Origin: Pirellulales bacterium
GTDB taxonomy: Bacteria > Planctomycetota > Planctomycetia > Pirellulales > JAICIG01
Reading direction: 5' to 3'
NCBI GenBank assembly: GCA_035533075.1
Contig: DATLUO010000163.1
Location: 1-45,447, forward strand
DNA length: 45,447 bases
Part shown: positions 14,801 through 43,622 of the stretch, one piece after another
How positions within the stretch are numbered: position 1 is the first letter of the stretch
Layout: every line of letters begins with the position of its first letter
The notes under the pieces: generated by a model
What the model was told of the DNA's origin: nothing
The model's database searches: none
What the model saw: only the letters and a program-made list of their open reading frames with translations
Program-made: the position numbers and the translations under genes

Positions 14801-17478
14801 ATGGCGCTGGGATTGGTCGAGAGGTCCGCTCCGCCCGATGCATCGACCGCCAGATCCGTGACGCTGACGGCCCCCGTGCCCGATTCTGTAACCGCGCCGC
14901 CGGTGAGGAGCGACAGAGTGCTGTAGCCCGCGTGCGTGGTGACGGGGGCGGTGACAGTAATATCGCCGCTGTTGTCGCTGCGGCCGATGCGCACCGTGCC
15001 TGCCGTGAGCTCCGCCAACGCCGTATCGCTCACATTCAGGTCGCCGGCCGTGGTGCCGCCGCCGAGGTCGATATTGCGCGCGGTCGTGGTGGCTTGCTGG
15101 ATGGTGACGGTGCCCGTGCCGGCGTCGATACCGTCGGTGGCGGTGTTGAGCACAAAATCATCGGCGCTGATCGTCACATCGCCGTTGCCGCCGTTGCGGT
15201 TGGTTTCAATCGAGGGGTTCGCCCCACCGTGGAGAGTGACGGTGCCGCCGGCGCCGGTGCTGAGGCTGATGGATCCGCCTTGGGTGGCCAGAATGGTCGG
15301 GCCGAAATCCGTTTCTAGGATGGAAACGTCGCCTCCGGCCGTGGCGCTGATGGTGCCGGTGCCGTGGGCGCTGACCAGCGAGCTGTCGTCGATGTTGATC
15401 TTGCCGCCGGCCGAAAGGACGACGCTCCCGCCGCCTTCGATGTCGCCGAAAGTCTGCGTGCCGGTATCGCCGACGAACAGGTTGCCGGCGGCGTCGAGCG
15501 TGGCCGTGCCCCCCGAGGACGCGACGGCACCGGTGAAACTGTCGAAGCCGGAGCCGTTGTTGCCGCCTAGCAAGATGTCGCCGCTGGTGGTGGTGACGCT
15601 CACCGCTCCCGGACCCTCGACGTTATCGCCGTTGGTCGTGATCGTGACCTTGCCGGCGTTGGTCAGGCTGATATCACCCGAGGTAGTGACGTGTACTCCG
15701 TTCACGCCGGAGATCACGCCGCCATTGATGGTGAGGTCGTCCGTGTTGCCAATAAAGATGCCCCCGGTCGCGGTTTGGGCCGACAGGTTGCTGACCTGGG
15801 TTGCCAGCGGCGTCGCAGACGAGCCGATGCCCGTGCTGGCCGACAGGGCGAGGCTGCCGCCCTTGATCGTGCCGGCGGTCTGGCTGATGGCGCCGCCGGC
15901 GTCGAGCGAAACGGTGCCGTTGGCGGTAATGCCGTCGACGTTGATGGTGTCGGCCGTCACGGTGAGGTCGCCGGCGCCCGTGGCCAAGTCGATGCCGTCG
16001 AGCGAGACGGTGGAGTTGGCCGTGTTGCCGTCGATCGCGAGGCTGGCCAGCGTGCCGCTGTATGTGATCGGCGCGGCGCCGTCACGGGTAACGCTGGAGT
16101 CGGTGACGACGTAGGTATGCGCCGCCCCGGTTGCATCGTTCACGTTCAAGGCGGCGGCAGCGGTCGACGTGGTGAAGGCCAGGCCCTGGGGCAGGCTGGC
16201 GCCGCTCGTATAGTCGACGTACAGCGAACCGTTGGTCAGCGTGGGGACGTTGCTCCCGCTGTTCCCGGTCGCGCTGACGGTTCCGGCGATGTACGTCGTG
16301 GTGTTGGTGCTGACGAGCGCGACATTGCCTTTGCCCGTTGATTTCACGGCCGCGCCGCCCACGATTTCGATCGCATCGTTGTTGCTTCCGCTGCCGCCCG
16401 TTCCGGTGATCTGGACGGCGGGACTGGTATCACTGGCAGAAGTCACCTGCGGACCAAACAACTCGACGCCGTAATTGGTGCTTGAGGGGCCGCTGCCGCC
16501 GGTGCCATCGAGGGTGACGGTGGCGGCGCCCGTCGAACTCACTCCTCCGGTGCCCTGAGCGTAGATTCCATCGTTGTGACCGCCCGTCCCGGAGCCGCCG
16601 GCGCCTGTGATCTGGATGTTCCCAGAGACGGATGTCACCGTGGCTGAGTCGAGAAAGACGCCTTCGTTGGATTCGGTGGGGCTACTGCCACCCGTGCCGT
16701 CGAGGGTAATGGTTGCCGAGCCGGTTGACGAGATCGTGCCGCCGCCAACAAAGATACCATCGCCGTCCGAGACGCCGCCATTGCCGCCCGTGCCGGTGAG
16801 TTGAATACTGCCGCTGGCCGAGGTGAGTGTGCCCGTGACGTCGATTCCGTCGAAGCTGCCGCTGCTGACCGCGGCCGTGTTCGCGCTGAGGATGACGTTG
16901 CCGCTGGACGTCGAGACGTTCGCTCCGCCGTTTACATCGATACTCGTATCGACGTTTGCATCCAACGTATTCGCGCCGAACGACGAGGCGCCATTGAGCG
17001 TCAAGCCGGGAAGCGCAGTCGAGTTGCCGAGGGTGACGGTGAAGTTGTTGGAATAGGCGTTGGCACCGCTGTCGTTGAAAGTCACCGAGTCGCTGCCCGA
17101 CGAGGCGCCAGTGTCGGTGATATCGATCCCGGTGGTGAAGGCGGCCATGCCTGCGGCGGTGACAGTCAGCGTCGCGGTGCCGTTGCCGCTGACGTTGGCG
17201 TCGTCCGTGCCGCTCCATGAACCGGAAGTCAGCGTGAGGTCGTAGGTGGTGCCGTTCGACACGATGGCCAGGGCGTCGTTCGTTTGCAGGGCGATGTCAA
17301 GCGTGGGGGCGCTGTCCGCGAAAGTCGCCAGCATGCGCCGGTCTTCCAGAAATTCATGGCGGAGAATGCTGAGGCGGTTGAGAAAGTCGGGGGCGCGAAA
17401 GTTGGACCGCAGCGTGCGCGGTTTCTTTTGACGGCGGCTGTTCTTACGAGAAGGCTTGGACCCGCGGTGAAAACTCAT
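5866..17478 (-). CDS. giant secreted repeat protein with DUF4214-type C-terminus
   Basis: About 3,870 residues. The start at 17478 (MSFHRGSKPSRKN) follows a GGGAG; the frame extends to 17589 but the extra residues look unrelated. A basic N-terminus leads to FLEDRRMLA (about 43-51), the planctomycete extracellular signature. Most of the protein is Gly/Ala/Thr/Ser/Asp-rich beta-strand repeat, including an autotransporter-associated repeat around residue 1260 (TLSGTNDYTGATTVGAGKLL). Two tandem arrays of 80-82-residue units span about residues 1900-2810. Near 3520 is a calcium-nonapeptide-like GGTGEDVLFGG. The last 220 residues hold four DUF4214-like half repeats (VLGRAAS, YLGRAAD, LLNRPAD, FLGRSPD). 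Cysteine is nearly absent. It is probably a cell-surface or matrix adhesin. No LPXTG, PEP-CTERM anchor or beta-barrel domain was seen, so how it is exported and held is unclear. Confidence 0.88.
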   Translation of the reverse strand: MSFHRGSKPSRKNSRRQKKPRTLRSNFRAPDFLNRLSILRHEFLEDRRMLATFADSAPTLDIALQTNDALAIVSNGTTYDLTLTSGSWSGTDDANVSGNGTATLTVTAAGMAAFTTGIDITDTGASSGSDSVTFNDSGANAYSNNFTVTLGNSTALPGLTLNGASSFGANTLDANVDTSIDVNGGANVSTSSGNVILSANTAAVSSGSFDGIDVTGTLTSASGSIQLTGTGGNGGVSDGDGIFVGGGTISSTGSATITLDGTGGSSPTESNEGVFLDSATVTSVSGNIQITGAGGSGTGGHNDGIYAQGTGGVSSTGAATVTLDGTGGSGPSSTNYGVELFGPQVTSASDTSPAVQITGTGGSGSNNDAIEIVGGAAVKSTGKGNVALVSTNTTTYIAGTVSATGNSGSNVPTLTNGSLYVDYTSGASLPQGLAFTTSTAAAALNVNDATGAAHTYVVTDSSVTRDGAAPITYSGTLASLAIDGNTANSTVSLDGIDLATGAGDLTVTADTINVDGITANGTVSLDAGGAISQTAGTIKGGSLALSASTGIGSSATPLATQVSNLSAQTATGGIFIGNTDDLTINGGVISGVNGVHVTTSGDISLTNAGKVTITTNGDNVEGPGAVSVTTTSGDILLGGNNGSGFDSFTGAVASSGGTATLDAAGNLFVGDTGTQTFGDIEGGGSVVLSAGGKINIDDSSLVSAHGTGTISATAGGDVSILETDFGPTILATQGGSISLSTGAGGTVTLHGGANPSIETNRNGGNGDVTISADDFVLNTATDGIDAGTGTVTIQQATTTARNIDLGGGTTAGDLNVSDTALAELTAGTVRIGRSDNSGDITVTAPVTTHAGYSTLSLLTGGAVTESGTGAVSVTDLAVDASGGADLSTNPSAISDVAAKSSSAGFALVDSLGLTVTTVDSVVGISTDGDLTVKANTAGTASGNFAGIDVDSVYVQAAGSGNVLLEATGGNSNGSNYGIEVLGGGVETTGTGTVTVTGTGGAAAGDGNFGVYVTGAGSKVTSSGGNVSVTGQGGISSASNQGGNVGVLVANSALITTGAGGNVSVTATGGSGTTGGNDGFDLATGGDLTAVGSGTIGIAATAGTSSSGTNLSLSIDNSGSQVLSAGGDITVSGVGTADLAAANALDAGTGTITLTSGTFQLESGAGGNALADTSELAVNLPAVLDMNGQSESIDGLSGDGTITNSAAATSSVLTVGVSGGGGTFAGGIDDGSGTIALTKDGAGTQTLSGTNDYTGATTVGAGKLLVDGSTAAASALTVQNGGTLGGKGSANGTVTVNSGGSLSPGDAPAILNTGSLSLTSGANFDVAIGGNTAGSYSEDNVSGNVSLGGATLNLSSFGGYVPQAGDEYILIKNGGGNPVSGTFAGLAEGALVSSNLLGSGLSAYLTYLGGTGNDVAIVVTGPFNATSPGGTLRLIQSGGNLQLRSGATVLDSRPLASVTSVTINGAANVANTLDIDYSGGTFVIAGGIMFNGGALPGTPSNALNILGGSFDTDTYTYTGAHAGSVQLGSSGQVIDYTNLTPIGNTGTATDVVFVLPGGADAVLEDNGGMPELASTNTAFEATTFVAPGSSLTIKDTHGGGTVTTTAGFAADFDAGLTIDDTTNTDVVNLNTLNLTAGTAALSVTAKTINIGADITTVNDQTYTGAVKLTATATLESTAAAGTIDFNGTLDTDGTVHDLTVESSSTTLDGEVGAGGPFGTLTFDGATSGSGTTNVNTDKVVASTVVFANAVVLQTTSNVKAATAVTFDNTVNTNGTAHDLEVDSPSTTFKGEVGKSPGDALGTLTVDGVTPGTGQTLIHTDAMQAAQLKFNNAVTLQTTTALTATNVTFAKTVDGAFALHVTSSGTTTFDDTVGVTAPGLTTLTLDGTGTSDLNGGAINTSGDQNYQQPVVISAIGAAIDLTSTGGSVTFGSTVNDATADTDALTVTGDTVFDNVVGGTPLKSLTVTGTSDFTVLASAVTTSGAQNYNGPVTVGPTGAALDLTSTAGIVTFGSTVNDATANTDALTVTGNAVFDNVVGGTPLKSLTVTGTSDFTLLASAVTTSGAQNYNGAMTVGPTGAALDLTSTGGIVTFGSTVNDATADTDALTVTGNAVFDNVVGGTPLKSLTVTGTSDFTVLASAVTTSGAQNYNGPVTVGPTGAALNLISTGGIVTFGNTVNDATANTNALTVTGNAVFDNVVGGTPLKSLTVTGTSDFTLLASAVTTSGAQNYNGPVTVGPTGAALDLTSTGGSVTFGNTVNDATADTDALTVSGNAVFDNVVGGTPLKSLTVTGTSDFTLLASAVTTSGAQNYNGPVTVGPTGAALDLTSTAGSVNFGNTVNDATADTDALTVTGDAVFDNVVGGTPLKSLTVTGTSDFTLLASAVTTSGAQNYNGAVTVGPTGAALDLTSTGGSVTFGNTVNDATANTDALTVSGNAVFDNVVGGTPLKSLTVTGTSDFTLLASAVTTSGAQNYNGTVTAGPTGAALDLTSTGGIVTFGSTLDDAASNTDALTVSGNAVFGGVVGGAKELRSLHVTGTSSFALAASAVTTGTTQNYDGTVTVGPTSKALDLTGTTISFGSTLDDAASNTDALTVSGNAVFGGVVGGAKDLLSLHVTGTTSFASAASGVATSTTQSYDGSVTVGPTSKALDLTGTTVTFGSTVDDAASNTDALTVSGNAVFGGVVGGAKELLSLHVTGTTSFASAASGVATSTTQSYDGSVTVGPTSKALDLTGTTVTFGSTVDDAASNTDALTVSGNAVFDGVVGGAKELLLLHVTGTSSFASAASAVTTSTMQNYDGAVTVGPTSKALDLTGTTITFGGTLDDAASNTDALTVTGDALFDGVVGGLHALKSLSVTGTADIEGGAVTTTTRQSYAGAVTLSADTTLNATTVTFAGTLNSDTTARVLTIHGAATFDGAVGGANPLKSLSVTGTADIEGGAVTTTTTQDYGGAATLSADTTLNATSVTFASMLDSDATPRALMINAAVTFDGAVGGLFALNSLSVTGTSNLNGGLIRSAGAQSYGGAVQVTIDDTLATLNDNANVTFSSTVDALNLGGAALTIDTSGGRAFGNFGVVQFEGKVGGLHPLAALTITSGPFTLNSGINVTTTGNVLITVAEEQHDEAGGPKDNLELGGGSTLTSSGGNIELRAGDNLKIDAGSTLAATAGTVTLRADFNNNDTTPGATIDLDGAINSPTINVFSGAGNDTINLQQTLGGTTTNINANGGGDTVNISSTAGASGAGVVSGIAGTVNVAAAGANNTLNLDDGGDATSTSGTLTATSITGLGMAGTVNYSGLAQVYVNLGTNAALDFNVQSTLGTTPVNLKGQASGTVDVGDLGHRLDGIAGLLVVDKVKTLDLNDQGSTSGQVYNIDNMSIGRPLNAPHVLVEYLDMGAGTTVEVNGGNQLGSQLVDDTFNLFLPNTATKNADGSAGPGELPITTTLKLDGGTSPGGFHNKLNVVVPQTAAATGNVYHAHVGNFGSADPIQIQNIQSLYMYGSPVDSNDLANDTSAFGVLIGGLNADTLLGGTGEDVLFGGGDTSGTGESLAARSATSFVFAEFAPQYNADGTVSYKQLTGNGNSTVNAGGGTAVAVTPNTEINSASDVVQVNGRIDALTFLTARFAPVTSLPSIFQQALAGDPVLSGLTAPPAGPAPLPVAHLGPSPTLSQLQDYVAAAFQDVLGRAASAADVSYWAGQLAGGLSRQDFATALTHSDEYYADKIITPAYEMYLGRAADAAGLAYWTSQLRDHGLTDEELEAGFIASAEFYTNAGGTDSGWVNALYLKLLNRPADANGLSFWLAQLAGGESREQVALGFTTSLERETTRVTGDYQTFLGRSPDQAGINYWVSEFAQGLMTNEDVIAGFVASDEFFSKHS
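9050..10060 (-). repeat. tandem repeat array B inside the giant gene (about 240-bp units)
   Basis: Four 240-bp units encode 80-residue repeats of the form AVTTS-TQNYDG-VTVGPTSKALDLTG-T-FGST-DDAASNTDALTVSGNAVFGGVVGGAKEL-SLHVTG. The two units around 9350-9830 are almost identical at DNA level, which points to recent duplication or gene conversion. On the C-terminal side (8650-9050) the pattern decays into shorter units of about 225 bp built on the same VGG-LKSLSVTG motif. Confidence 0.9.
10060..11770 (-). repeat. tandem repeat array A inside the giant gene (243-bp units)
   Basis: Seven units spaced 243 bp apart (equivalent points at 10085, 10328, 10571, 10814, 11057, 11300 and 11543) encode 81-residue repeats around TSDFTLLASAVTTSGAQNY, GPTGAALDLTSTGG, DATADTDALTV and FDNVVGGTPLKSLTVTG. 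Units differ at only a few positions. The last unit in the protein (about 10010-10250) starts as type A and ends as type B, a hybrid at the junction of the two arrays. Confidence 0.93.
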
Positions 17479-17598
17479 GGCCGATAACTCCCAGTGGTGG
17501 CAAAACCGCCTACAGCACGCCGGTCGCCCGTAAACCGGCTTATTCTCTCGGTCCGGGCATGAACCGTGGCCGCCCCGAAATTGAAGCACGTAAGTTCC

Positions 17599-31737: not shown

Positions 31738-33171
31738 TCAGCCGGGCTGCTCGAGCGCGCGGACCGCGTCGTTGAGCAGAGCGACAAACGGCGGCGGGTT
31801 GTAAAGACCCAGCAGCAGCACCAACGCCATGCACAACAAGATCGGCAGACCGGTGCCGATGCTGTCCTGGAAGCCGGCCGGCGCCGCCTCAGCGGAGGGC
31901 GACCCAAACGACATCGAAACCACCGTCACTCCCATGCCGATAAAGACCATGAAGAGCAGCAACACGAACAGACCTCCGGCCCAATAGTGTCCGGTGACAA
32001 ACGTGGCCGAGAGAATCTGAAACTCACTGACGAACGGGGCGAACGGCGGCGACGCCGTGATGGCAAAGAAGCCCGCCAGGAACATCGCCCCGGAAAGCGG
32101 CAACCGCCGCAACACGCCGTGCAGATCGTCGGTGAATTTACTGCCGTAGGCGCGGTGGATGTTGGCGGCCGAGAGAAAGAGCACACCTTTGGTCAACCCA
32201 TTGTGGACGACGTGCAGCAGTGAGCCAAGCACCGCCGTGCCGCCCACGCCGATGCCGAACACCAGAATGCCCATGTGCTCCACGCTCGAATAGGCCAGCA
32301 GCCGCTTCACGTCGCGCTGCCGGATCATGAACACCGCCCCCAGAGCCATCGAGAACATTCCGATCAACATCATGATCCGCTGCACGAAAGGAAGGTCATG
32401 CGCCACGGCGGCGATCTGATAGAACCGCAGAATGGCCAGAAACGCGCAACTGGTCAAACTGCCGGCCATCAGCGCGCCGAGAAGGCCCGGCGCCTCGCCG
32501 TAGGCGTCCGGCTTCCAGGTATGCATCGGCGCCAGGCCCATCTTCGTGCCATAGCCGACGAACAGCAGCACGAACGCGGCGTGCAGCCAGGGCAAGGAGA
32601 GGTGGGGGGCCTCGCGGACGAGATCGTCGAACAGCAGCGTCGCTTCCAGGCCGGCGTGGAGCGACGAGTAGGCGAGAAAAAACGAGCCGAGCAGCGCCAA
32701 GGCGATACCCACGGAGCAGATCACCAGGTATTTCCACGTCGCCTCCAACGACCGCCGGTTGTGATTGAAATAGATGCCGGGAGCGGTCGCGAGGGTCGTG
32801 GCTTCCATGGCCACCCACATCACGCCCAGATGATGCGACAGCACGATGAGCGTCATCATCGCTTGCGCCAACAGCAGGCAAGCGCAGAACACGCGGTTCG
32901 GCCGCTCCTGCCTCAGGGCCAGATAGGGCGGCGCGTAGAGCGAGCAGAGCACGAAAAAAAGGGCGTTGAATCCAAGAAACAGCTTGCTCAGCGGGTCGAG
33001 CGACAGCCAGCCGCCGAAGGCCGACACCTCGCCCTGGTCCAACGCCGCGGCGACCAGGCCAAGTTGAATCGCCCCCGCCAGCGGCACCAGCCAGGGCCGC
33101 CAACGGTTCGACGGTGTGGCGAACACCACCGCGGCGGCCAGGAGCGGACAGAGAATCAGCCAAACGGCCAT
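31738..33171 (-). CDS. hydrogenase-4 HyfF-like proton-pumping membrane subunit
   Basis: 477 residues, about 13-14 hydrophobic segments, of the NuoL/M/N antiporter-like family. Key features are the conserved Glu in VMWVAMEATTLAT, the conserved Lys in GYGTKMGLAPMHTWKPDAYG, LLAYSSVEHMGILVFG, and a conserved His region HVVHNGLTKGVLFLSA. The run TKMGLAPMHTWKPDAYGEAP is characteristic of HyfF and CooM-type subunits rather than of NuoN. It is the last gene of the minus-strand cluster; its stop directly abuts the pheS stop with no base between. No large or small hydrogenase subunit gene follows it. Confidence 0.82.
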   Translation of the reverse strand: MAVWLILCPLLAAAVVFATPSNRWRPWLVPLAGAIQLGLVAAALDQGEVSAFGGWLSLDPLSKLFLGFNALFFVLCSLYAPPYLALRQERPNRVFCACLLLAQAMMTLIVLSHHLGVMWVAMEATTLATAPGIYFNHNRRSLEATWKYLVICSVGIALALLGSFFLAYSSLHAGLEATLLFDDLVREAPHLSLPWLHAAFVLLFVGYGTKMGLAPMHTWKPDAYGEAPGLLGALMAGSLTSCAFLAILRFYQIAAVAHDLPFVQRIMMLIGMFSMALGAVFMIRQRDVKRLLAYSSVEHMGILVFGIGVGGTAVLGSLLHVVHNGLTKGVLFLSAANIHRAYGSKFTDDLHGVLRRLPLSGAMFLAGFFAITASPPFAPFVSEFQILSATFVTGHYWAGGLFVLLLFMVFIGMGVTVVSMSFGSPSAEAAPAGFQDSIGTGLPILLCMALVLLLGLYNPPPFVALLNDAVRALEQPG

Positions 33172-33174
33172 CGG

Positions 33175-33861
33175 TCAGTCCCGCAGGGTTTTCAGGTGGG
33201 TGGGGCTGGCTTCGCCGAAGGCGCGGCTGACGTGGTTGATGATGATGCCCATCACGAACACGCCGACGAACAGGTCGAGCAGCACGCCCAGCTCGACGAG
33301 GCTCGGAATCGCATCCACCAGCAGCAGGCCGAAGATAAAGATGCCGTTTTCCAGCACGATGTAGCCCAGCACCTGCGTGAGCGCCCGCCAGCGCGTGGTA
33401 AGAATCACCGAACCTGCGAAGACGGTGGCCAGGGCGGCGGGCACCACGAGATTGCTGCTGTCATCGGCACGCAGCGGCAGCCGGGCGGCGAAGGCCATGG
33501 CCAGCACGGTGCCCACCGCTCCCACGAGCAGCGCCGGCACGATGCCGATGGTCGATTCCTCGTCGCGGCGGATATCCACTTCGCGGAGGGCCTTCAACAA
33601 CAGCCAAGGAATCACGGCCCCTTTGACGGCGGCCATGACGAGGGTCAGAACGATCAGCCGCGGCACCGCCCATGCGTCGCCGCCGCCGGCCGCACTATCC
33701 GCCACTCGGCCTCCAAAATGCGCCACCGGGTAGGCCAGCGCCAGCAACACTCCCTGCAAAGCCACCGCCCGCACGACCGCACGCAATTGCGTCGACGTGA
33801 GGATGTACAGATTCATCAACAGCACGAGGACCAGCAGCGGATCGAGGGATTTAATCGTCAT
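33175..33861 (-). CDS. hydrogenase-4 HyfE-like membrane subunit
   Basis: 228 residues with about six to seven transmembrane segments. It matches the HyfE pattern: an N-terminal LVLVLLMNLYILTSTQL, a central VMAAVKGAVIPWLLLKALRE, and a C-terminal VLGYIVLENGIFIFGLLLV followed by PSLVELGVLLDLFVGVFVMG, which resembles NuoK. It sits in the membrane arm beside the antiporter-like subunits. It is spaced 3 bp from the HyfF-like gene and directly abuts the HyfC-like gene, so all are one transcript. Confidence 0.82.
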   Translation of the reverse strand: MTIKSLDPLLVLVLLMNLYILTSTQLRAVVRAVALQGVLLALAYPVAHFGGRVADSAAGGGDAWAVPRLIVLTLVMAAVKGAVIPWLLLKALREVDIRRDEESTIGIVPALLVGAVGTVLAMAFAARLPLRADDSSNLVVPAALATVFAGSVILTTRWRALTQVLGYIVLENGIFIFGLLLVDAIPSLVELGVLLDLFVGVFVMGIIINHVSRAFGEASPTHLKTLRD

Positions 33862-34776
33862 CTATGCATACGCGATGATGAGCACCAGCCCCAAGGCCGA
33901 CAACACGACCGCGGCGATCAGCAGGTGCGGGAGCGACACCAGACGCAGCCGCGCCATGCCCGATTCGACGACGCCGACCACGACGGCGACCGCCAGCACG
34001 CCGGCCACAAAAACGACCCAGTCGACCAGGCCGACGCCCGTAGCCAGCGGCACCGACAGTTGCACGATGAGGGCCGCGAACACGAATAGTTTGACGGCCG
34101 CCCCGTAGACGATCAAGCTCAGGGCCGGCCCGCTGTGGTCGAGCACCATGACTTCATGAATCATGGTCAGTTCGAGGTGCGTATTGGGGTCGTCGAACGG
34201 AATGCGGCAGTTCTCGACGAGCAGCAGCACGAACCAGCTTGCCAGAATCAGCAGCATGCCGGCCCCGGCCGTTCCCCATTGGGCTTCGAGCGACGTATCG
34301 AGCATGCCCGCCAACCGCAGCGATCCGCTGATCTTCGCCAGCACCAGCAGGCCGAAAAACAACACCGGCTCCGCCAGGCAGGCATACGTCGCCTCGCGGG
34401 CCGACCCCATCCCTTCGAAGGCCGAGCCGGTGTCGAGCGCGGCCAGCACGGTGAAGAAACGCCCCAGTCCCAGCAGGTAGGCGAAAAGAACCAAGTCGCC
34501 CGTAAAAGACAAGGGGGCGTCGTGCTCTCCCAGCGGAACGATCATGGCTGCCAGCAAGGCCGTGGCCAGGCCGATCACCGGACCAAATTTGAACACCCAG
34601 GTCGTCGTCTCGCTGAAGACCGATCCCTTTTGCACCAGCTTCCACAGATCGTAGTAGACCTGCGCCAGCGGCGCCCCGGTGCGGCCGGCGAAGAACGCCT
34701 TGGTCTTGTTGATCACGCCCGGCAGCAGCGGCGGCAGGGCCAAGACCAGCAGAATGTGCAATAGAAAGTTGATCAT
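33862..34776 (-). CDS. hydrogenase-4 HyfC/HycD-like (NuoH-like) membrane subunit
   Basis: 304 residues, about eight transmembrane helices. NuoH-like features are GVINKTKAFFAGRTGAPLAQ near the N-terminus, LYDLW-type cytoplasmic loop residues (VYYDLWKLVQKGSV), and the loop VENCRIPFDDPNTHLELTMIHEV, the acidic surface that in complex I borders the quinone cavity and in hydrogenases meets the hydrophilic arm. The start is ATG 34776. The open frame continues upstream, but only through a family B repeat, so those residues are not used. That repeat separates it from the HyfB-like gene. Confidence 0.85.
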   Translation of the reverse strand: MINFLLHILLVLALPPLLPGVINKTKAFFAGRTGAPLAQVYYDLWKLVQKGSVFSETTTWVFKFGPVIGLATALLAAMIVPLGEHDAPLSFTGDLVLFAYLLGLGRFFTVLAALDTGSAFEGMGSAREATYACLAEPVLFFGLLVLAKISGSLRLAGMLDTSLEAQWGTAGAGMLLILASWFVLLLVENCRIPFDDPNTHLELTMIHEVMVLDHSGPALSLIVYGAAVKLFVFAALIVQLSVPLATGVGLVDWVVFVAGVLAVAVVVGVVESGMARLRLVSLPHLLIAAVVLSALGLVLIIAYA

Positions 34777-34780
34777 ATCT

Positions 34781-34849
34781 GGAGGATGGCCTTCCCAGGC
34801 CATCTCGTTGCTTGTTTTCGTGCTGGACGGCCTGGGAAGGCCATCCTCC
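34781..34849. repeat. family B inverted repeat within the hyf-like operon
   Basis: GGAGGATGGCCTTCCCAGGC plus CATC (34781-34804) pairs with GACGGCCTGGGAAGGCCATC plus CTCC (34826-34849) around a 21-bp loop. It lies 5 bp upstream of the HyfC-like ATG and supplies the nearest Shine-Dalgarno-like purines. It fills most of the gap to the HyfB-like gene, the only sizeable gap in the cluster. Confidence 0.85.
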
Positions 34850-34878
34850 GGACGTCGCATATTGACCTGAGCACGGCC

Positions 34879-36852
34879 TTAACTCCACACCAACAGGAGA
34901 ATGAGCGTCGCGAAAATGTAGAGCAGGTAGACCTGGAGACTGCCGCGTTGCAGGACGCGAAACCGGGTGAAGAAGCGTGCCGCCCAGGCGAACGACGGCC
35001 CGATGCCGCGGTCGAGGACCGTTTCCGGCACGTGCGTATGGAAATCGGCCTGTTGCGGAAACAGGCCCTTGGGCCGGTGCTCGTGACGGCGGGGCAGCAA
35101 GGCCCAGGCGAAAAGATCGACGAGCATCTGAGCGAACGACGACGCCGTGTACTGCATCCGCGGCGACGGGGCCGCGAAGCCGCAGTCCCAAGTGAGGGTT
35201 GAGGCGACTTCGCCGCTGCGCAGCCTCTGCCGGAGGAAGACGCCGATCGCGACGGTGAGCGCGATCAGCGCCGCGGCCGCCACGCTGATCCGTCCCAGCG
35301 GCGCCAAGCTGACGAGCGGCTGCTCTGGGGCGGCCACGTTCACGGTCCATGCGCGGGCAGCTTGTTCGAGCCAGGGGGCGACGAGAACGGGCAGCAGCCC
35401 GATCGCGGCGCAGCACGTGGCCAGGATGCACATCGGACCGAACATCGTCACGGGTGCTTCATGCCCCCGCCGGGCGTGCTCCGACCGAGCGACGCCGAGA
35501 AACACCGCGCCGAACACTTTGGCGAAACAGGCGGCGGCCAGCACGCCCATCAGCGCCAGCGCCGGCGCGGCAAAGGCCGCGATCGGCCAGCCCGGCGATC
35601 CCTTCAGGCCCAGCGTCTTGAAGAGTCCCAAGTAGATCAACAGCTCGCTCACAAAACCGTTCAGCGGGGGCAGACCGCAGATGGCGACCGCGCCGATCAG
35701 AAACAATACCGCGGTGCGGGGCATGGGTTTGGCCAGTCCGCCCAACAGGTCGATCTCGCGTGTGCCGACGGCGTGGATCACCGAGCCGGCGCTCAAGAAC
35801 AACAGCGACTTGAACAAGGCGTGGTTCCAAACGTGCAACAGGGCGCCGCCGAGGCCCAGCACGACCCACGAGACTTGTCCCAGCGATCGGCCGACCAGCG
35901 CCAGACCCAGCCCCAGCAGAATGATGCCGATGTTCTCGATGCTGTGGTAGGCCAGCAACCGCTTGAGGTCGTGCTGACCGATGGCGAACGCGACGCCAAG
36001 CACGCCGGAGATCACGCCCAGGCCCAGCACCAGCCCTCCCCACCACAGCGGCGGATGCGGCAACAGCGAGCCGATGCGCACCAGGCCGTAGATGCCCATT
36101 TTGATCATCACGCCCGACAGCAGCGCCGAGACGTGACTGGGCGCCATGGCATGCGCGCTGGGCAGCCAGATGTGCAGCGGCATGACGCCGGCCTTCGTGC
36201 CGAATCCCAACAGGGCGACGAGAAAGATGGCGGTGGCCAGGCCCGGCGTCGCCGCTTCGAGGCTGACGAAGTCGAACGTTCCGCTCACGCTCCACATCAG
36301 GGCGAACAGCCCGACCAGGCAGAGCGTGGCGAAGTGGCTGGCGGCCAGATAGATCCAGGCCGCCTCGCGCACCTGTTGGTCGTGGTCTTCGGTGGCGACC
36401 AGGAAGAAGGCGCTGAGGGCCATCGCTTCCCAGGCATAGAGAAACAGCACGCCGTCGCGCGCGACGACCAGCAGCGTCATCGCCGCCGCCAGCAGTCCAT
36501 AGAACAGCGACAGCTTGCGATGGTTTTCCGGGTGTTCCGTGGCCTTCCAATAGCCGACGCCATAGACCGCCCCGCAGAGCGAAACGAGCAGCACGGGCAG
36601 CAGAAAAAACGCCGAAAGAAAATCGACGCCCACGGTCAACGTGCCGCCGGTCGGCGAGGGACAGGTCAGGCCTTGACCTACCGCGCCGGATAAGCGCCCC
36701 ACGGCGCCGATCAACCCGCAGCCGCAGCCCACGATCACCAGCAGCGCCGCCAGGCGTTGGCCGAAGAACGAGCGGCGATCGAAAAAAAATCCCGGCACCC
36801 CGCTGACGGCGAGCAAGACGACGGCCGCGATCACCCATTGTTCGGCGTTCAC
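34879..36852 (-). CDS. hydrogenase-4 HyfB-like proton-pumping membrane subunit
   Basis: 657 residues, about 15-16 transmembrane helices, NuoL-like. It has the conserved Glu in FLYAWEAMALSAFFLVA, the conserved Lys in GFGTKAGVMPLHIWLPSAH, MAPSHVSALLSGVMIKMGIY, LLAYHSIENIGIILLG and HVWNHALFKSLLFLSAG. The TWDCGFAAPSPRMQYTASSF stretch near the C-terminus is typical of HyfB/HycC. The start is a GTG at 36852 (NAEQWVIAAVVLL); the upstream frame to 36930 crosses a family B half-repeat and is rejected. It is the first gene of the cluster, so a promoter should lie in 36853-36923. Confidence 0.88.
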   Translation of the reverse strand: MNAEQWVIAAVVLLAVSGVPGFFFDRRSFFGQRLAALLVIVGCGCGLIGAVGRLSGAVGQGLTCPSPTGGTLTVGVDFLSAFFLLPVLLVSLCGAVYGVGYWKATEHPENHRKLSLFYGLLAAAMTLLVVARDGVLFLYAWEAMALSAFFLVATEDHDQQVREAAWIYLAASHFATLCLVGLFALMWSVSGTFDFVSLEAATPGLATAIFLVALLGFGTKAGVMPLHIWLPSAHAMAPSHVSALLSGVMIKMGIYGLVRIGSLLPHPPLWWGGLVLGLGVISGVLGVAFAIGQHDLKRLLAYHSIENIGIILLGLGLALVGRSLGQVSWVVLGLGGALLHVWNHALFKSLLFLSAGSVIHAVGTREIDLLGGLAKPMPRTAVLFLIGAVAICGLPPLNGFVSELLIYLGLFKTLGLKGSPGWPIAAFAAPALALMGVLAAACFAKVFGAVFLGVARSEHARRGHEAPVTMFGPMCILATCCAAIGLLPVLVAPWLEQAARAWTVNVAAPEQPLVSLAPLGRISVAAAALIALTVAIGVFLRQRLRSGEVASTLTWDCGFAAPSPRMQYTASSFAQMLVDLFAWALLPRRHEHRPKGLFPQQADFHTHVPETVLDRGIGPSFAWAARFFTRFRVLQRGSLQVYLLYIFATLILLLVWS

Positions 36853-36869
36853 GTCGCTATGATACAAGC

Positions 36870-36889
36870 CGGGCGACGGCCTTCCTAGT
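36870..36889. repeat. family B half element
   Basis: GGGCGACGGCCTTCCTAG matches one arm of family B. No second arm is present nearby. It lies upstream of the HyfB-like gene and downstream of the LRR gene. Confidence 0.45.
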
Positions 36890-36923
36890 GCCGCGTGCCA
36901 AGAGTTGGTGGAACAGCAACAAC

Positions 36924-37637
36924 CTACCAATGGAAGTGCAAGTGCGGCAGCGATTCTTGCAGACGGCCCGCGGCCTCGTCGGTCACCTGGCTCCCTTCGA
37001 TATAAAGCGTTTCGAGTTGGTCGAAGCCGAGCAGCTTTTCCAGGCCGGCGTCGGTGAGGGGTGCGTTCTGCAGAATCAAGGCGGTCAAGTCGGGCATGCC
37101 GCGGACGCTCCCCAATGCGTCGTCGCCGATCTGACTGGCTCCGAATCGAAGCGTGCGCACGTGTTCCAGCGACGTCAGCTTTTTCAGGCCCGCGGAAGTC
37201 ACCGCCGCGCTGCCGAAATTGAGCGTCTCCAATCGCCGCATGCCGAGCACCGGACCGAGCCCCTCGTCGGTGACGCTCGTTTCGCCGAGAACGAGCGTTT
37301 GCAAATCGGTCAGCCCGGCCAAGTGTCGCAGGCCCACGTCCGTGAGCTCCGTGTTTTTCAGCACCAGCTTGTGCAAGCCCGGCAGACCTTCGAGAGTGGC
37401 CAGATCGTCGTCGGCGACGGGTTGCGTCTCCAACTCGATTGAGTCGGATTTACCTTCCCGGACTCGCTCGATCTGCTCGGTCAGCGAATCTTCGGCTGGC
37501 GCGTCTTTGCGACTTGGTACGCTGGCCGACCGCGGCGCTGGCGGAGGTTCGCAACCGGCGATGAGCGACAATAAAACAAGGGCGAGCGGCAGGCGTGAGC
37601 GTGCCGCTGCGCGAGCCAAGCGAACACGACACTGCAC
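36924..37637 (-). CDS. leucine-rich-repeat lipoprotein
   Basis: About 237 residues. A basic N-terminus and hydrophobic run end in a lipobox, LLSLIAGC, so it is probably anchored by lipid. A Pro/Ser/Glu linker is followed by about six to seven 23-24-residue LRRs of the planctomycete type: LTDVGLRHLAGLTDLQTLVL, TSVTDEGLGPVLGMRRLETL, AAVTSAGLKKL, QIGDDALGSV, PLTDAGLEKL and QVTDEAAGRL. Such repeats usually bind proteins. The start is uncertain; GTG 37637 is used because it puts the leader at the N-terminus, but no good ribosome site is seen. The DUF3500 gene ends 40 bp upstream on the same strand. Confidence 0.75.
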   Translation of the reverse strand: MQCRVRLARAAARSRLPLALVLLSLIAGCEPPPAPRSASVPSRKDAPAEDSLTEQIERVREGKSDSIELETQPVADDDLATLEGLPGLHKLVLKNTELTDVGLRHLAGLTDLQTLVLGETSVTDEGLGPVLGMRRLETLNFGSAAVTSAGLKKLTSLEHVRTLRFGASQIGDDALGSVRGMPDLTALILQNAPLTDAGLEKLLGFDQLETLYIEGSQVTDEAAGRLQESLPHLHFHW

Positions 37638-38820: not shown

Positions 38821-38855
38821 CGGCCTGCTTAACCCCCGGCGTTTTGGCAATCATC

Positions 38856-39089
38856 ATGGCTCACCTTCCGCGACTTTTGTTGACCCTGCCGCTGACAGCG
38901 GCGATTTGGCTGACGGCCGGTCCTGCCTCGGCCCAGGCTCCCGCCGCGACGGGCCCGGAAATGCCTTGGCAAGTCGCCGTGTTGTTCACCGCCAATTGGG
39001 TGTTGGCGGCGGTGGCTGTGGCCATTCTGTCCCGGCCCTCGAAGCGTCCCGATAAGCCGAAGAAGTCCCTGGACGAAGAGGCCGCCTGA
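38856..39089 (+). CDS. small membrane protein of unknown function
   Basis: 77 residues, not recognised. Signal-like N-terminus (LLLTLPLTAAIWLTAGPASAQA), a short Pro/Ala spacer, one transmembrane helix (VAVLFTANWVLAAVAVAIL) and a basic tail (RPSKRPDKPKKSLDEE). With a cleaved leader the tail would be cytoplasmic. The start is taken at ATG 38856; an upstream TTG at 38844 is possible. The last base of its TGA is the first base of the next gene's ATG. Confidence 0.62.
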   Translation: MAHLPRLLLTLPLTAAIWLTAGPASAQAPAATGPEMPWQVAVLFTANWVLAAVAVAILSRPSKRPDKPKKSLDEEAA

Positions 39090-39541
39090 TGAACATGCCG
39101 ATTCTGTTCGCCGACCTGAACGCCACCAAGGTGCTGGGCATCATTCACTGGATTGGCATGGCGTTCGTCTTTTTGTGGTTTCTCGGGTCATGCATGAAAG
39201 ACGGAATGTGGAACAACGGCCTGCGATGCATCAGCGCATTCGTCGCATCGATGCTGAGCTTTCCGCTGGCCGTGCTGGCGGCGGGCCTGTTCGGCGGCAG
39301 TTCCGGAGCCAGCGCGCCGGATGATTACCTGCCGCTGGCGATCGCCATCGGCGCAAACTGGATCGCGTTCGTCGTCTGCCTCGGCGTCATTCTGACTCTG
39401 ACCGACGGTCTGTCGCAAGTGAAAGTGGCCTTTCACCCCATCGTCAACAGCGTCGGCAGTTTCATCTTTATCTGCGGGATCGCGGCGGTGTTCCTCTTTT
39501 ACGCGACGCCGATCTACAGCGTCGTGCAAGCGCTCAAGTAG
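39089..39541 (+). CDS. polytopic membrane protein of unknown function
   Basis: 150 residues, four likely transmembrane segments (about 17-35, 47-68, 81-104 and 122-145). It is not recognised. Loop residues include LGSCMKDGMWNNGLRCISAF and TLTDGLSQVKVAFHPIVNSV. The TGATG overlap with the preceding gene means the two are translated together and probably form a complex. They converge on the GspE-like/PilT genes, which suggests but does not prove a link with that apparatus. Codon use and composition match the neighbours. Confidence 0.65.
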   Translation: MNMPILFADLNATKVLGIIHWIGMAFVFLWFLGSCMKDGMWNNGLRCISAFVASMLSFPLAVLAAGLFGGSSGASAPDDYLPLAIAIGANWIAFVVCLGVILTLTDGLSQVKVAFHPIVNSVGSFIFICGIAAVFLFYATPIYSVVQALK

Positions 39542-39583: not shown

Positions 39584-39679
39584 GTAGGGTGGGACCAGCG
39601 AGCTTGCGAGCGCCGGCCCACTATAAACGACGTCCGTATCGGTGGGCCGGCGCTCGCAAGCTCGCTGGTCCCACCCTAC
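39584..39679. repeat. family A inverted repeat (complete copy)
   Basis: Arms of about 38 bp, left beginning GTAGGGTGGGACCAGCGAGC, right its near-exact complement, with a loop of about 20 bp containing GACGTC, as in the copy at 17819. It fills the space between two convergent genes and reaches within 4 bp of the GspE-like stop codon, so it would fold at the 3' end of both transcripts. Confidence 0.88.
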
Positions 39680-39682
39680 GAT

Positions 39683-41560
39683 TCACGTTTCTTTCAAGGC
39701 CCGCTGAAGCTCCGGCAAGGAGGTCACGCCGGTCACCACCAGCAGCAATCCTTCTTCTTGCAGCGTGCGCATGCCGGCCTTGCGGGCGGCCTGCCGGACG
39801 GCCTCCACCTGCGGCTTCTTCTGCAGCGTTTGGCGCACCAGGTCGTCGACCACCAGCGACTCGAAGATGCCCGTGCGACCGAAGTAGCCGATGCCGCGGC
39901 ACTGCCCGCACGGTTCCTGAGGCTGTTCGGGATTCGGCGTCGGCGGACGATAGAGCGCTTCGATGCGGCCTTGGGGAATTCCGAGCTGCTGCAGCAACTG
40001 CGGCGGCGGAGCGTAGGCTTCTTTGCACTTGTCACACAGCTTTCGCACCAGCCGCATGTTGACCGCCACCTTCACGGCGCCGGCGTATTTTTGCGGCGGC
40101 ATCTTCAAGGTCATCACGCGCAACAGCGCCTCGGCCGCTTCCTTGGCCCGCGCCGTGGTGATCACCGTCCGATCCAGGCCCGTCTGGTCGCACAACAGCT
40201 CGGCACTTTCCGCGTCCTTCATGTCGGGCACCACGATCACGTCCGGGTACTCGCGGATCAACTTGGGCAAGACCGTGAGCGGCGATTCGCCGCCCGCCGC
40301 GTTGAAGGTGGTGACCGGCACGTTCTCGATCTGCACCTCTTTGGCCGCGGCGTCTTCGACGCAGATGAAGCCGCGAGTATAGCGGTCCATGCCGCTGACG
40401 ATGGCGTGCAACAAGCTCGTCAGGCCCGCGCCCGGCGGCGCCGAGATCACCACCATGCCCGTGCGCGACTCGAGCACCGGTTTCAAATCCTCCCACATCT
40501 TCTCGCGCATGCCGAGGTCGATCGACCGTTTCTTGCGCACATCGGGATCGGGGAACTGGATCAGCACGCGCTCGCCGGTTTGTGTGCCCTGGCTCATCAC
40601 GCGAGGCGTGTGCTTTTTGCCCTGATACTCGGCGCCGAACGATCCCTGTTGCCGTGCCCGCCGCTCGTTGGGGTTCAACGCGCAGAGCACCTTGAGCACG
40701 GCCAGCAGCATGTCGCCCGGCTCGCGCTCCAGGTTCTCGCCCGGATGCCAGACGCCATCCACTTGAAAGCGGACCGAAACCGATTGTTGCGTAAAGTCGA
40801 GCATGATCGAGTCGGCCCGGTTGTCGAGACCCTGGGCCAACAACTCGCGGGCCGACAGAAAGCCGGGGGCCTGCCGGGCCGTGAGCAAGTTTACATTGTC
40901 GTCGCGCTCGGTCGCGCCGCCGCTGGCCGTGAGCTTGATCGGCGGGCCGACGTCGTCCGCCGTAAGCTGATCGGAACGGACTTTGATGCCGATCATCTGT
41001 AATTTCCTGGCCGTCCAGCGGCGAATGTGCGCCGAATTGAACACCTTCTGGTCCAGGGCCACTTGCTGGTTGTGCTTGACGCAATAAACGATGAACGGCA
41101 CCAGGAAGAACAGGAATTGGAGCGCATAGCCGACCCAGAACGTGACGCTGGACGAAAGCAACGACATGACGGGGTGGCACAGAAAACCGCTCGCCAGAAA
41201 GCACAGGCCAAACGGCAGACACATGGCCAGGTTCCAGTTGCGGTTTTGCTTGCGAAAGTAGCGGTCGCGGTTGACCCAGTCGGCGGCGGAGACCCACCAC
41301 AGGACGACCACCAGGTAAAGCAGTGCCTGAACCACGGCATAAATCAAAATGCCGACGTTGATGTCGACGCCCGTGAATTTGTCTGCCCAGTAAGGCACCA
41401 ATTTACGGATCACGTCATTGAACGAACCGGCCGACGCTTGGGGCACGGCTACCGGGGCGGCTTGTGGCGCAGCGGGCATCGGCGCTTGGCCCAACGCCGG
41501 CAGCGCGGCGAAACACCAGCAAAGGAACCCCAGGAGGATAATGGCAAGTCGTCCGCGCAT
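39683..41560 (-). CDS. membrane-anchored GspE/PilB-like protein with degenerate Walker A
   Basis: 625 residues. An N-terminal signal (LAIILLGFLCWCFAALPAL), Pro/Ala linker and three transmembrane helices (about 70-95, 110-132 and 138-160) put the rest in the cytoplasm. From about residue 200 it follows the type II/IV secretion ATPase plan: VRFQVDGVWH, IQFPDP, then the P-loop region VVISAPPGAGLTSLLHAI. The invariant P-loop lysine is Leu380 (codon 40423-40421). The Walker B region reads YPDVIVVPDMKDAESAEL where active relatives have GEIRDxET. The CxxC zinc motif (CDKC and CGQC) and GYFGRTGIFE are kept. ATP hydrolysis is doubtful; a regulatory or structural role is more likely. The TGATG overlap couples it to pilT upstream. 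Confidence 0.85.
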   Translation of the reverse strand: MRGRLAIILLGFLCWCFAALPALGQAPMPAAPQAAPVAVPQASAGSFNDVIRKLVPYWADKFTGVDINVGILIYAVVQALLYLVVVLWWVSAADWVNRDRYFRKQNRNWNLAMCLPFGLCFLASGFLCHPVMSLLSSSVTFWVGYALQFLFFLVPFIVYCVKHNQQVALDQKVFNSAHIRRWTARKLQMIGIKVRSDQLTADDVGPPIKLTASGGATERDDNVNLLTARQAPGFLSARELLAQGLDNRADSIMLDFTQQSVSVRFQVDGVWHPGENLEREPGDMLLAVLKVLCALNPNERRARQQGSFGAEYQGKKHTPRVMSQGTQTGERVLIQFPDPDVRKKRSIDLGMREKMWEDLKPVLESRTGMVVISAPPGAGLTSLLHAIVSGMDRYTRGFICVEDAAAKEVQIENVPVTTFNAAGGESPLTVLPKLIREYPDVIVVPDMKDAESAELLCDQTGLDRTVITTARAKEAAEALLRVMTLKMPPQKYAGAVKVAVNMRLVRKLCDKCKEAYAPPPQLLQQLGIPQGRIEALYRPPTPNPEQPQEPCGQCRGIGYFGRTGIFESLVVDDLVRQTLQKKPQVEAVRQAARKAGMRTLQEEGLLLVVTGVTSLPELQRALKET

Positions 41561-42732
41561 CACAGGATTCCGGGAGCCTTGACCTCGATGCCTTTGAGCG
41601 CCATGCGCAACGCATCGACGTTGGGCGCCACCTCGAACGCCGTGGCACGGTCGATCAGGTCCGTGTCGACCAGGTTTTTGAGACTCATAGTGAAGTCCTG
41701 CATCCCTTCCTTATCGCACATGCGGATGGCGTCAGGCAGCTTCTCGTCTTTCTCTTCCAGCACCAGCTTGCGGATGATGGAGTTGAAAATCATGATTTCC
41801 ACGGTGGGCACGCGTCCCACGCCCGGCTTGATCGACGGCAGCAGCTTCTGGCCCACAATGGCCTTCATGTTCATGGCGATCGCGCTGCGCAGTGCGGAGT
41901 GCATCGATTGCGGAAACAGGTCGAGAATACGGCCGATGGTGGACGGCGCGCCCGAAGCGTGAATGGTTCCGAACACCAGGTGGCCGGTTTCGGCCGCGTG
42001 AATGGCCGTCATAAACGTCTCTTCATCGCGCATTTCGCCCACCAGCATCACGTCGGGGTCTTCGCGCACGGCGTGCTTCATGCCGATGCCGAAATCCACC
42101 ACGTCCAATCCGACCTCGCGCTGGTTGATCAGGCATTTGTCTTCGGTAAACACGAATTCGATTGGATCTTCCAGCGTCAGAATGTGCTTGCGATAGTTCT
42201 GGTTGATCCAGTTGAGCATCGAGGCGATGGTGGTGCTCTTGCCCGAACCGGTCACGCCGGCCAAGAGCACCATGCCCTGGTCCCATTTGCAGAGCGACTC
42301 CATGATGGGCGGCAGATTCAGCCCTTCGAAGGGCGGTATGAGCTGGTTCACGCGGCGGGCCACCAGCCCCACGTGGCCAAGCTGCTGCAGCACGTTCACG
42401 CGGAACCGCCACATGCTGCCGTCGACGTCGGTGGTATGGGCGAAGTCGGCCCCGCCGGTCTCCTCGAAGATTTTGCGGTTGCGGTCGGTGAACATGGGGA
42501 AGATCAGCCGCACCATTTCTTCGTCGTCGACCGGCCCGCGGTCGAGCGGCCGCAAGGTGCCGTTGACGCGCACGATCGGCGCGCGGCCGACTTTCATGTG
42601 CAGGTCGCTCCCCTTCAGCTTCACCAGGGCGCGAAACAGCTTGTCGATCTCCAGCTCGACGTGTTTCTTGACGAATTTTGCCGCCAGGGCGTCGCTGCCG
42701 GGCGTTACGGGGGGTGCCATTGCTGTTGCCAT
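41560..42732 (-). CDS. pilT: PilT-like type IV pilus retraction ATPase
   Basis: 390 residues. PilT powers pilus retraction and twitching. The active-site motifs are all intact: KGSDLHMKVG near the N-terminus, Walker A GVTGSGKSTTIAS, Asp box ILTLEDPIEFVF, Walker B DPDVMLVGEMRDEET, and His box GHLVFGTIHASGAPSTIGRI. The C-terminal helical part has the NMKAIVGQKLLP pattern. The N-terminal extension of about 30 residues is unusual but mild. The frame ends in TGATG shared with the GspE-like gene, so the active and degenerate ATPases are made together. No pilin or PilC gene is in the window. Confidence 0.93.
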   Translation of the reverse strand: MATAMAPPVTPGSDALAAKFVKKHVELEIDKLFRALVKLKGSDLHMKVGRAPIVRVNGTLRPLDRGPVDDEEMVRLIFPMFTDRNRKIFEETGGADFAHTTDVDGSMWRFRVNVLQQLGHVGLVARRVNQLIPPFEGLNLPPIMESLCKWDQGMVLLAGVTGSGKSTTIASMLNWINQNYRKHILTLEDPIEFVFTEDKCLINQREVGLDVVDFGIGMKHAVREDPDVMLVGEMRDEETFMTAIHAAETGHLVFGTIHASGAPSTIGRILDLFPQSMHSALRSAIAMNMKAIVGQKLLPSIKPGVGRVPTVEIMIFNSIIRKLVLEEKDEKLPDAIRMCDKEGMQDFTMSLKNLVDTDLIDRATAFEVAPNVDALRMALKGIEVKAPGIL

Positions 42733-42845: not shown

Positions 42846-43622
42846 TTACGCGGCGATCGACCGCACGGGAATGCCACGGGCGGCCATCACCTGTTTGGTT
42901 TGTTGAATCGTATACTCGCCAAAATGAAAAATACTGGCCGCCAGGGCGGCGTCGGCCTTGCCCATCTGGATGGCGTCGGCCAGGTGTTCGGGCCGCCCCG
43001 CGCCACCGCTGGCCACGACCGGAATCGACACGGCCTCGCTCACCGCCGCCGTGATCTCCAAATCGTAACCGTTCTTGGTGCCGTCCGCATCCATCGACGT
43101 CAGCACAATTTCGCCCGCCCCCAGCCGCTCGACCTCGCGTGCCCAGGACACGGCCTCCAGGCCCGTGCCGACTCGACCGCCGTTGATGTGGACTTCCCAA
43201 ATCTCGCGGCCGTCTTTCACCACCCGCTTCGGATCGATGTTGACCACGATGCACTGGCTGCCGAACCGCCGGGCGGCGTCGGCCACAAACCGCGGGTTCT
43301 GCGGGGCGGCCGAATTGATCGACACCTTGTCGCAGCCGGCGCTCAACAGTTGCCGGATGTCGTCGATCGTGCGGATGCCGCCCCCCACGCAGAGCGGCAT
43401 GAAAATGACTTCGGCGGTGCGGCGGACCACGTCGAGCATGATGGCGCGGCCTTCGTGGCTGGCGGTGATGTCGAGGAACACCAGTTCGTCGGCCCCCTCT
43501 TTTTCGTAGCGCGCGGCCACCTCGACGGGGTCGCCGGCATCGCGCAACTGAATGAAATTGGTGCCTTTGACGACCCGCCCGCGATCGACGTCGAGGCAGG
43601 GAATCACCCGCTTGGCCAGCAT
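42846..43622 (-). CDS. hisF: imidazole glycerol phosphate synthase cyclase subunit HisF
   Basis: 258 residues, a TIM barrel that with HisH converts PRFAR and ammonia to imidazole glycerol phosphate and AICAR. It has both phosphate loops and both catalytic aspartates: [14 protein letters not shown] (Asp11) and [14 protein letters not shown], plus [12 protein letters not shown] and [13 protein letters not shown]. It starts at ATG 43622. No other his gene is adjacent. A family D repeat lies between its stop and pilT, so it is probably transcribed alone or ahead of pilT. Confidence 0.97.

Follow-up and report, generated by a model that had tools for sequence, protein, structure and literature searches.

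The window analysed here is a stretch of 45,447 nucleotides on a contig from a Pirellulales bacterium, in which hisF, pilT and a gene referred to below as X follow one another on the minus strand. The pilT stop codon overlaps the start of X, as GTGA if X begins at a GTG or as TGATG if it begins at an ATG; the TGATG junction described in an earlier note on this DNA agrees with the reading frames and coordinates. The features of the locus are:

42846-43622, minus strand: hisF, the conserved neighbour 5' of pilT-X and a positional marker of the locus
41560-42732, minus strand: pilT, 390 amino acids, PilT/PilU family, all catalytic motifs intact
39683-41563, minus strand: X, a putative membrane-anchored PilB/GspE-like pseudo-ATPase, 626 amino acids (from GTG) or 625 (from ATG)
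41495-41560, minus strand: N-terminal hydrophobic segment of X, MRGRLAIILLGFLCWCFAALPA, Sec-signal-peptide-like by sequence and by a predicted helix at residues 2-19
40919-41380, minus strand: membrane domain of X, residues 62-215, three predicted transmembrane helices, with conserved W90, D100, W110, Y160, R164 and N165
40409-40444, minus strand: degenerate Walker A of X, SAPPGAGLTSLL, Lys replaced by Leu381 (motif alignment)
40211-40246, minus strand: degenerate Walker B region of X, PDVIVVPDMKDA, GE replaced by PD (motif alignment)
39899-40036, minus strand: zinc site of X, tetra-cysteine C510, C513, C552 and C555, invariant in intact and degenerate orthologues
39089-39541, plus strand: CvpA/colicin V production-like membrane protein (profile match, E 4.5e-13)

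The pilT product falls within the PilT/PilU family (TIGR01420, 382 bits against a cut-off of 319), and its motifs read GVTGSGKST, LEDPIE, VGEMRD and GHLVFGTIHAS; the earlier claim that every catalytic motif is present is upheld by the motif reading. At all compared loci the adjacent PilTs retain the Walker A Lys, the Walker B GE and the HIS-box histidines, whatever the state of X, with LDDP in place of LEDP in one of 80 (12 of these 80 loci being extra or showing genomes that had been counted before). The window PilT is the only one detected in its genome (one match), and many relatives have a second, about 40% identical. Degenerate X is found both with and without a second PilT, leaving the absence of another PilT unsupported as an explanation for the degeneration. 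The genome also encodes further GspE/PilB and T2SSF proteins, among them those of T2SS loci that have a GspE and a GspF of their own, and it has a PilM-like match; since those machines are present, the window PilT may serve one of the T2SS, GspE or PilB machines or a separate one.

X belongs to the T2SSE family (PF00437; 1.5e-50, 172 bits against a cut-off of 24.9), and scores below the NCBIfam equivalog cut-offs for both GspE (190-195 bits against 617-630) and PilB (171 against 676). In the predicted model (pLDDT 86.9), membrane helices span residues 67-104, 110-128 and 140-167, matching the three helices that had been placed ahead of the ATPase domain, and a further hydrophobic helix at residues 2-19 resembles a signal peptide; a cleaved signal peptide followed by three helices would therefore make the ATPase domain cytoplasmic. 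The top Foldseek matches are PilF, PilB and GspE, and the cytoplasmic domain of the model superposes on the Thermus thermophilus PilB/PilF core (5it5) with Z 39.5 and 2.5 A over 382 residues; a search of a viral structure library gave mainly generic ATPase matches. For the membrane domain, predicted alone with pLDDT 87.1, there was no PDB match (the best from Foldseek having only E 2.5) and no match in a Pfam search, neither of which is proof of novelty. The zinc cysteines lie in CDKC and CGQC and make up the tetra-cysteine motif that characterises the PilB/GspE clade (PMC5424180); all four are invariant, in line with the surviving zinc CxxC remarked on earlier.

An active motor of the PilT/PilB family has a Walker A Lys, a Walker B Glu, the HIS-box histidines and two arginine fingers (PMC5424180), a set that X has largely lost. 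The comparison covered 43 orthologues from the window's order (Pirellulales, by its named relatives) and 34 intact-type orthologues from other families; the count of 43 leaves out a tandem second copy in the order (L197 3773-5101), in which GDGKST is present and the other motifs are absent. The P-loop of the window X reads SAPPGAGLTS, its Leu being residue 381 from the GTG and 380 from the ATG, the numbering in which Leu380 was originally described. Across the order, Lys is never found at this position (0/43): Leu occupies it in 38 orthologues, Phe in two, and Met, Tyr and Thr in one each. All 34 intact-type orthologues have Lys. Of the idea that Lys-to-Leu is a conserved change, then, the loss of Lys stands throughout, but five of the 43 have settled on residues other than Leu. 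Similarly, the Walker B region (PDVIVVPDM in the window) does have PD for the usual GE, but the acid is mostly kept, with Asp or Glu at position 447 in 39/43 and Glu itself in 10/43. Both HIS-box histidines are lost from the window X; the equivalent positions in the order, equated with the PilB pair by position and spacing, carry Arg or Lys in 34/43 (H465) and 32/43 (H472). The putative phosphate-contacting arginine finger, R336, whose equivalence is judged from alignment and its 15-residue spacing from R321 (compare R271/R286; PMC5424180), is kept in 4/43 and is mostly Gln. Judged by these motifs, the catalytic death of X appears well supported.

Parts of the pocket are nevertheless still recognizable in the order: G380 in 43/43, S/T382 in 39/43 and the Asp-box Glu403 in 35/43. 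Because these residues and Asp/Glu447 persist, X may still bind nucleotide. One alternative built on this is that X binds nucleotide or another phosphate ligand without hydrolysing it, as a sensor gating PilT, and that the Arg/Lys residues derived from the HIS box (34/43 and 32/43) could contact phosphate instead of the P-loop Lys. This would make sense of both the persisting pocket and the His-to-basic changes, but it has to accommodate a P-loop Lys replaced by hydrophobic residues, a phosphate-contacting R336 that has mostly become Gln, and the loss from the order's X of the N2-domain residues D252 and H254, which are fixed in the intact group; we consider it unlikely.

A more trivial explanation, that the P-loop Leu stems from a sequence error or from decay of X, is virtually out of the question: nothing was found in its favour, and the same substitution recurs in independent genomes across the order, in open frames under purifying selection. 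Between related pairs, dN/dS is 0.07-0.43 for X, values inflated by upstream sequence included in the X frames, and 0.04-0.16 for pilT; X in the order is under purifying selection. The residues common to the intact group, the order-wide degenerate group and a degenerate group in other classes lie mainly in the membrane domain (W90, D100, W110, Y160, R164 and N165), the zinc site and the C-terminal region. Since these are kept and dN/dS is low, the catalytic set has been lost selectively, not through decay. The view that X is not simply decaying, put forward from the one sequence, is therefore strengthened by order-wide conservation and selection, and Leu380 as a sequencing error is excluded by the absence of Lys from independent genomes of the whole order. 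Orthologues with the same anchor and an intact GK[ST], which in close homologues would have spoken against the original idea, come from sister orders and deep branches rather than from close relatives.

X is widespread: all 39 relatives searched gave matches, with full-length orthologues throughout the order, and phylum-wide and class-wide searches recovered full-length membrane-anchored orthologues in other orders and classes. Intact motifs are found in families f21, f106, f107, f51, f65 and f69 and in most of f105; X is degenerate in the whole of the window's order and in a group from other classes (f67, f76, f83, f89 and f94), where Arg, Val, Thr, Gly or Gln stands at the Lys position; and two f105 genera and f108 have partial degeneration with Lys kept. 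The membrane helices are absent from X of a few genera in the order and from the f21 paralogues. That catalytic loss is tied to the membrane anchor can be rejected, as anchored orthologues with intact motifs exist. Several unusual copies were seen along the way. One partly degenerate X in f105 (L184 1502-3355) has lost the zinc cysteines and kept the P-loop Lys, the reverse of the window's pattern. In f7, a family of the window's order, L099, L101 and L102 encode, in addition to the degenerate X, membrane-anchored PilB-like proteins that retain every motif and lie apart from pilT. In f21 (L203 and L204), the intact anchored X is accompanied by a second X-like protein, a degenerate paralogue some 440 residues long and devoid of membrane helices.

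In the order, pilT is directly upstream of X in 38 of the 42 cases whose flanks are long enough to judge (excluding one tandem second copy and three intact paralogues that are unlinked), and in twelve other families this arrangement is universal or almost so. The exception is the sister family f21, where pilT adjoins X in only 4/13 (two paralogues left out) and X stays with a CvpA-like gene instead. Constant adjacency of pilT to its partner, a prediction of the earlier note, is thus usual but not universal. Moreover, hisF mostly lies 5' of pilT, the hisF-pilT-X locus being found phylum-wide; because hisF is equally linked and presumably unrelated in function to pilT-X, pilT-X linkage alone is weak proof of interaction. 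Two observations call most strongly for caution: hisF is linked just as closely as pilT, and in f21 X keeps to the CvpA-like gene without pilT. Both would fit an arrangement in which X partners T2SS or type IV pilus machinery (a GspF/PilC-like platform), or the CvpA-like protein alone, and follows pilT by an accident of operon structure, as hisF does; the T2SS loci elsewhere in the genome, with their own GspE and GspF, would be compatible with this as well. Adjacency of pilT and X across so many families and deep branches exceeds what neutral gene order would be expected to leave, and we rate this explanation as quite unlikely.

The CvpA-like membrane protein is a third conserved member of the pilT-X module, one that the earlier note had left unconnected. 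In 39 loci the gene downstream of X encodes a membrane protein of roughly 200-250 residues, or more in some other classes; the gene is co-directional with X in most relatives and on the opposite strand in the window's family. Against PF02674 (Colicin_V), the protein of one relative scores 30.1, with a cut-off of 29.3, and that of another falls below the cut-off; the window protein has no PF02674 match. With a single distant relative as query, no CvpA-like gene was found in the genome, but a profile of the downstream proteins did find one, 39089-39541 being its only match in the window. Directly 5' of this gene is an ORF for an 81-residue hydrophobic protein (38844-39089, plus strand), seen in the same place, among the compared loci, only in the closest relative (L065/L005).

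Between the convergent CvpA-like gene and X is a long perfect inverted repeat (39584-39679) with arms of 38 bp, GTAGGGTGGGACCAGCGAGCTTGCGAGCGCCGGCCCAC, and a predicted RNA fold of -97 kcal/mol (z -15). A 30-base part of it occurs 328 + 342 times in the genome and not at all in a reversed control. It looks like a GTAG-type REP family; such elements have been described in Planctomycetes (PMC3733652). Two other peculiarities of the window are a 3907-residue open frame (5866-17589, minus strand) with four DUF4214 stretches, the best near the C-terminus, possibly encoding a giant surface protein, and a run of NADH:quinone oxidoreductase/Mrp antiporter-like membrane subunits with an NADHdh subunit (31738-36930, minus strand), which together look like the membrane module of a group 4 hydrogenase or of some related complex.

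How X came to its present state can be approached through its intact relatives. The same anchored protein occurs in sister orders and deep branches with its full set of motifs, so the anchor is older than the loss of catalysis. The PilT tree is congruent with the taxonomic groups, and on it X needs five changes from intact to degenerate; following PilT, there would have been about five losses, two complete and three partial. The tree of X itself places the long-branched degenerate copies together, with one or two changes, and for that reason fewer losses are possible; topology tests on X do not reject arrangements that match PilT and taxonomy (AU p 0.11, 0.17 and 0.10). Read literally, the X tree would point to one ancient degenerate paralogue, with intact and degenerate versions later being differentially lost or replaced at this one locus. 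This would be an alternative for the history, not the function, of X, and seems to us fairly unlikely: the branches are long, the taxonomy-following groupings survive the same tests, and the PilTs adjoining partly degenerate copies of X, which occupy this same locus, fall within the PilTs of intact relatives. As it is implausible that all catalytic motifs were regained, the probable minimum is two independent losses; repeated catalytic loss in X is favoured but not proven.

The usual picture of a pilus or secretion motor is a soluble, active hexamer docked on PilC or GspF. Because its ATP site has been lost order-wide and elsewhere, while PilT stays intact, X looks more like a motor turned scaffold or regulator. 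The interpretation we find moderately probable is that it is an inner-membrane pseudo-ATPase derived from an anchored PilB/GspE-type motor, acting as a platform or allosteric partner of PilT, with the CvpA-like protein as a further partner. The signal-peptide-like segment and three helices would hold the PilB-like domain at the inner membrane, facing the cytoplasm, where, going by its motifs, it would no longer hydrolyse ATP; as the two-lobed PilB fold and zinc site are kept, it probably still assembles, likely as a ring. As to X and PilT, products of the same operon, power would come from PilT, and X, binding it as a membrane platform or allosteric partner, would set where PilT works and perhaps whether it does, probably with the CvpA-like membrane protein alongside. 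Against this reading, some genera have an X without membrane helices, and f21 mostly separates pilT and X. A broader version, possible but doubtful, is a Planctomycetota-wide PilT machine distinct from ordinary type IV pili, made up of a soluble PilT motor, an anchored PilB-derived stator and the CvpA-like protein, in which the stator ATPase was lost repeatedly because only its scaffold role was needed.

The PilT/PilB/GspE superfamily is well known, but the literature searched yielded no anchored PilB relative that is catalytically degenerate across an order and paired with PilT. No report of the PilT-X pair, of a pseudo-ATPase beside PilT or of a membrane-anchored PilB in planctomycetes came up in the open-licence literature; subscription journals lie mostly outside it, so these may be known. 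The presence of intact and degenerate X orthologues at one locus provides natural replicates for studying roles of such ATPases beyond burning ATP. The pair is also a concrete candidate for the little-known pilus-like machinery of planctomycetes, whose crateriform structures bear pili-like fibres (PMC5394234, a text in which PilT and type IV pili are unmentioned).

Among known systems, PilB, PilF and GspE have in common with X the ATPase fold of two lobes (with T. thermophilus PilB/PilF, Z 39.5), the tetra-cysteine zinc site and the T2SSE family; X differs in having lost the Walker A Lys, Walker B GE, HIS box and one arginine finger, in the three-helix membrane domain that replaces the usual soluble N-terminal region, and in adjoining pilT rather than pilC or gspF. 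Likeness of the third member to the CvpA family comes from the PF02674 match of a relative's downstream protein; the window copy is only a remote homologue, on the strand opposite X. PilU resembles X as a second family member accompanying PilT: Walker-mutant PilT still supports retraction through PilU, and PilU cannot act without PilT (PMC6821130). By analogy, PilU is an earlier example of a second ATPase that works through PilT, even when PilT has Walker mutations, although it is an active ATPase of the PilT clade, whereas X is of the PilB/GspE clade, membrane-anchored and catalytically degenerate. In the archaellum, FlaH is a non-hydrolysing RecA-fold partner of the motor FlaI, thought to regulate a secretion-type motor; FlaH and X would both be putative non-motor partners, FlaH being of a different family and lacking membrane helices.
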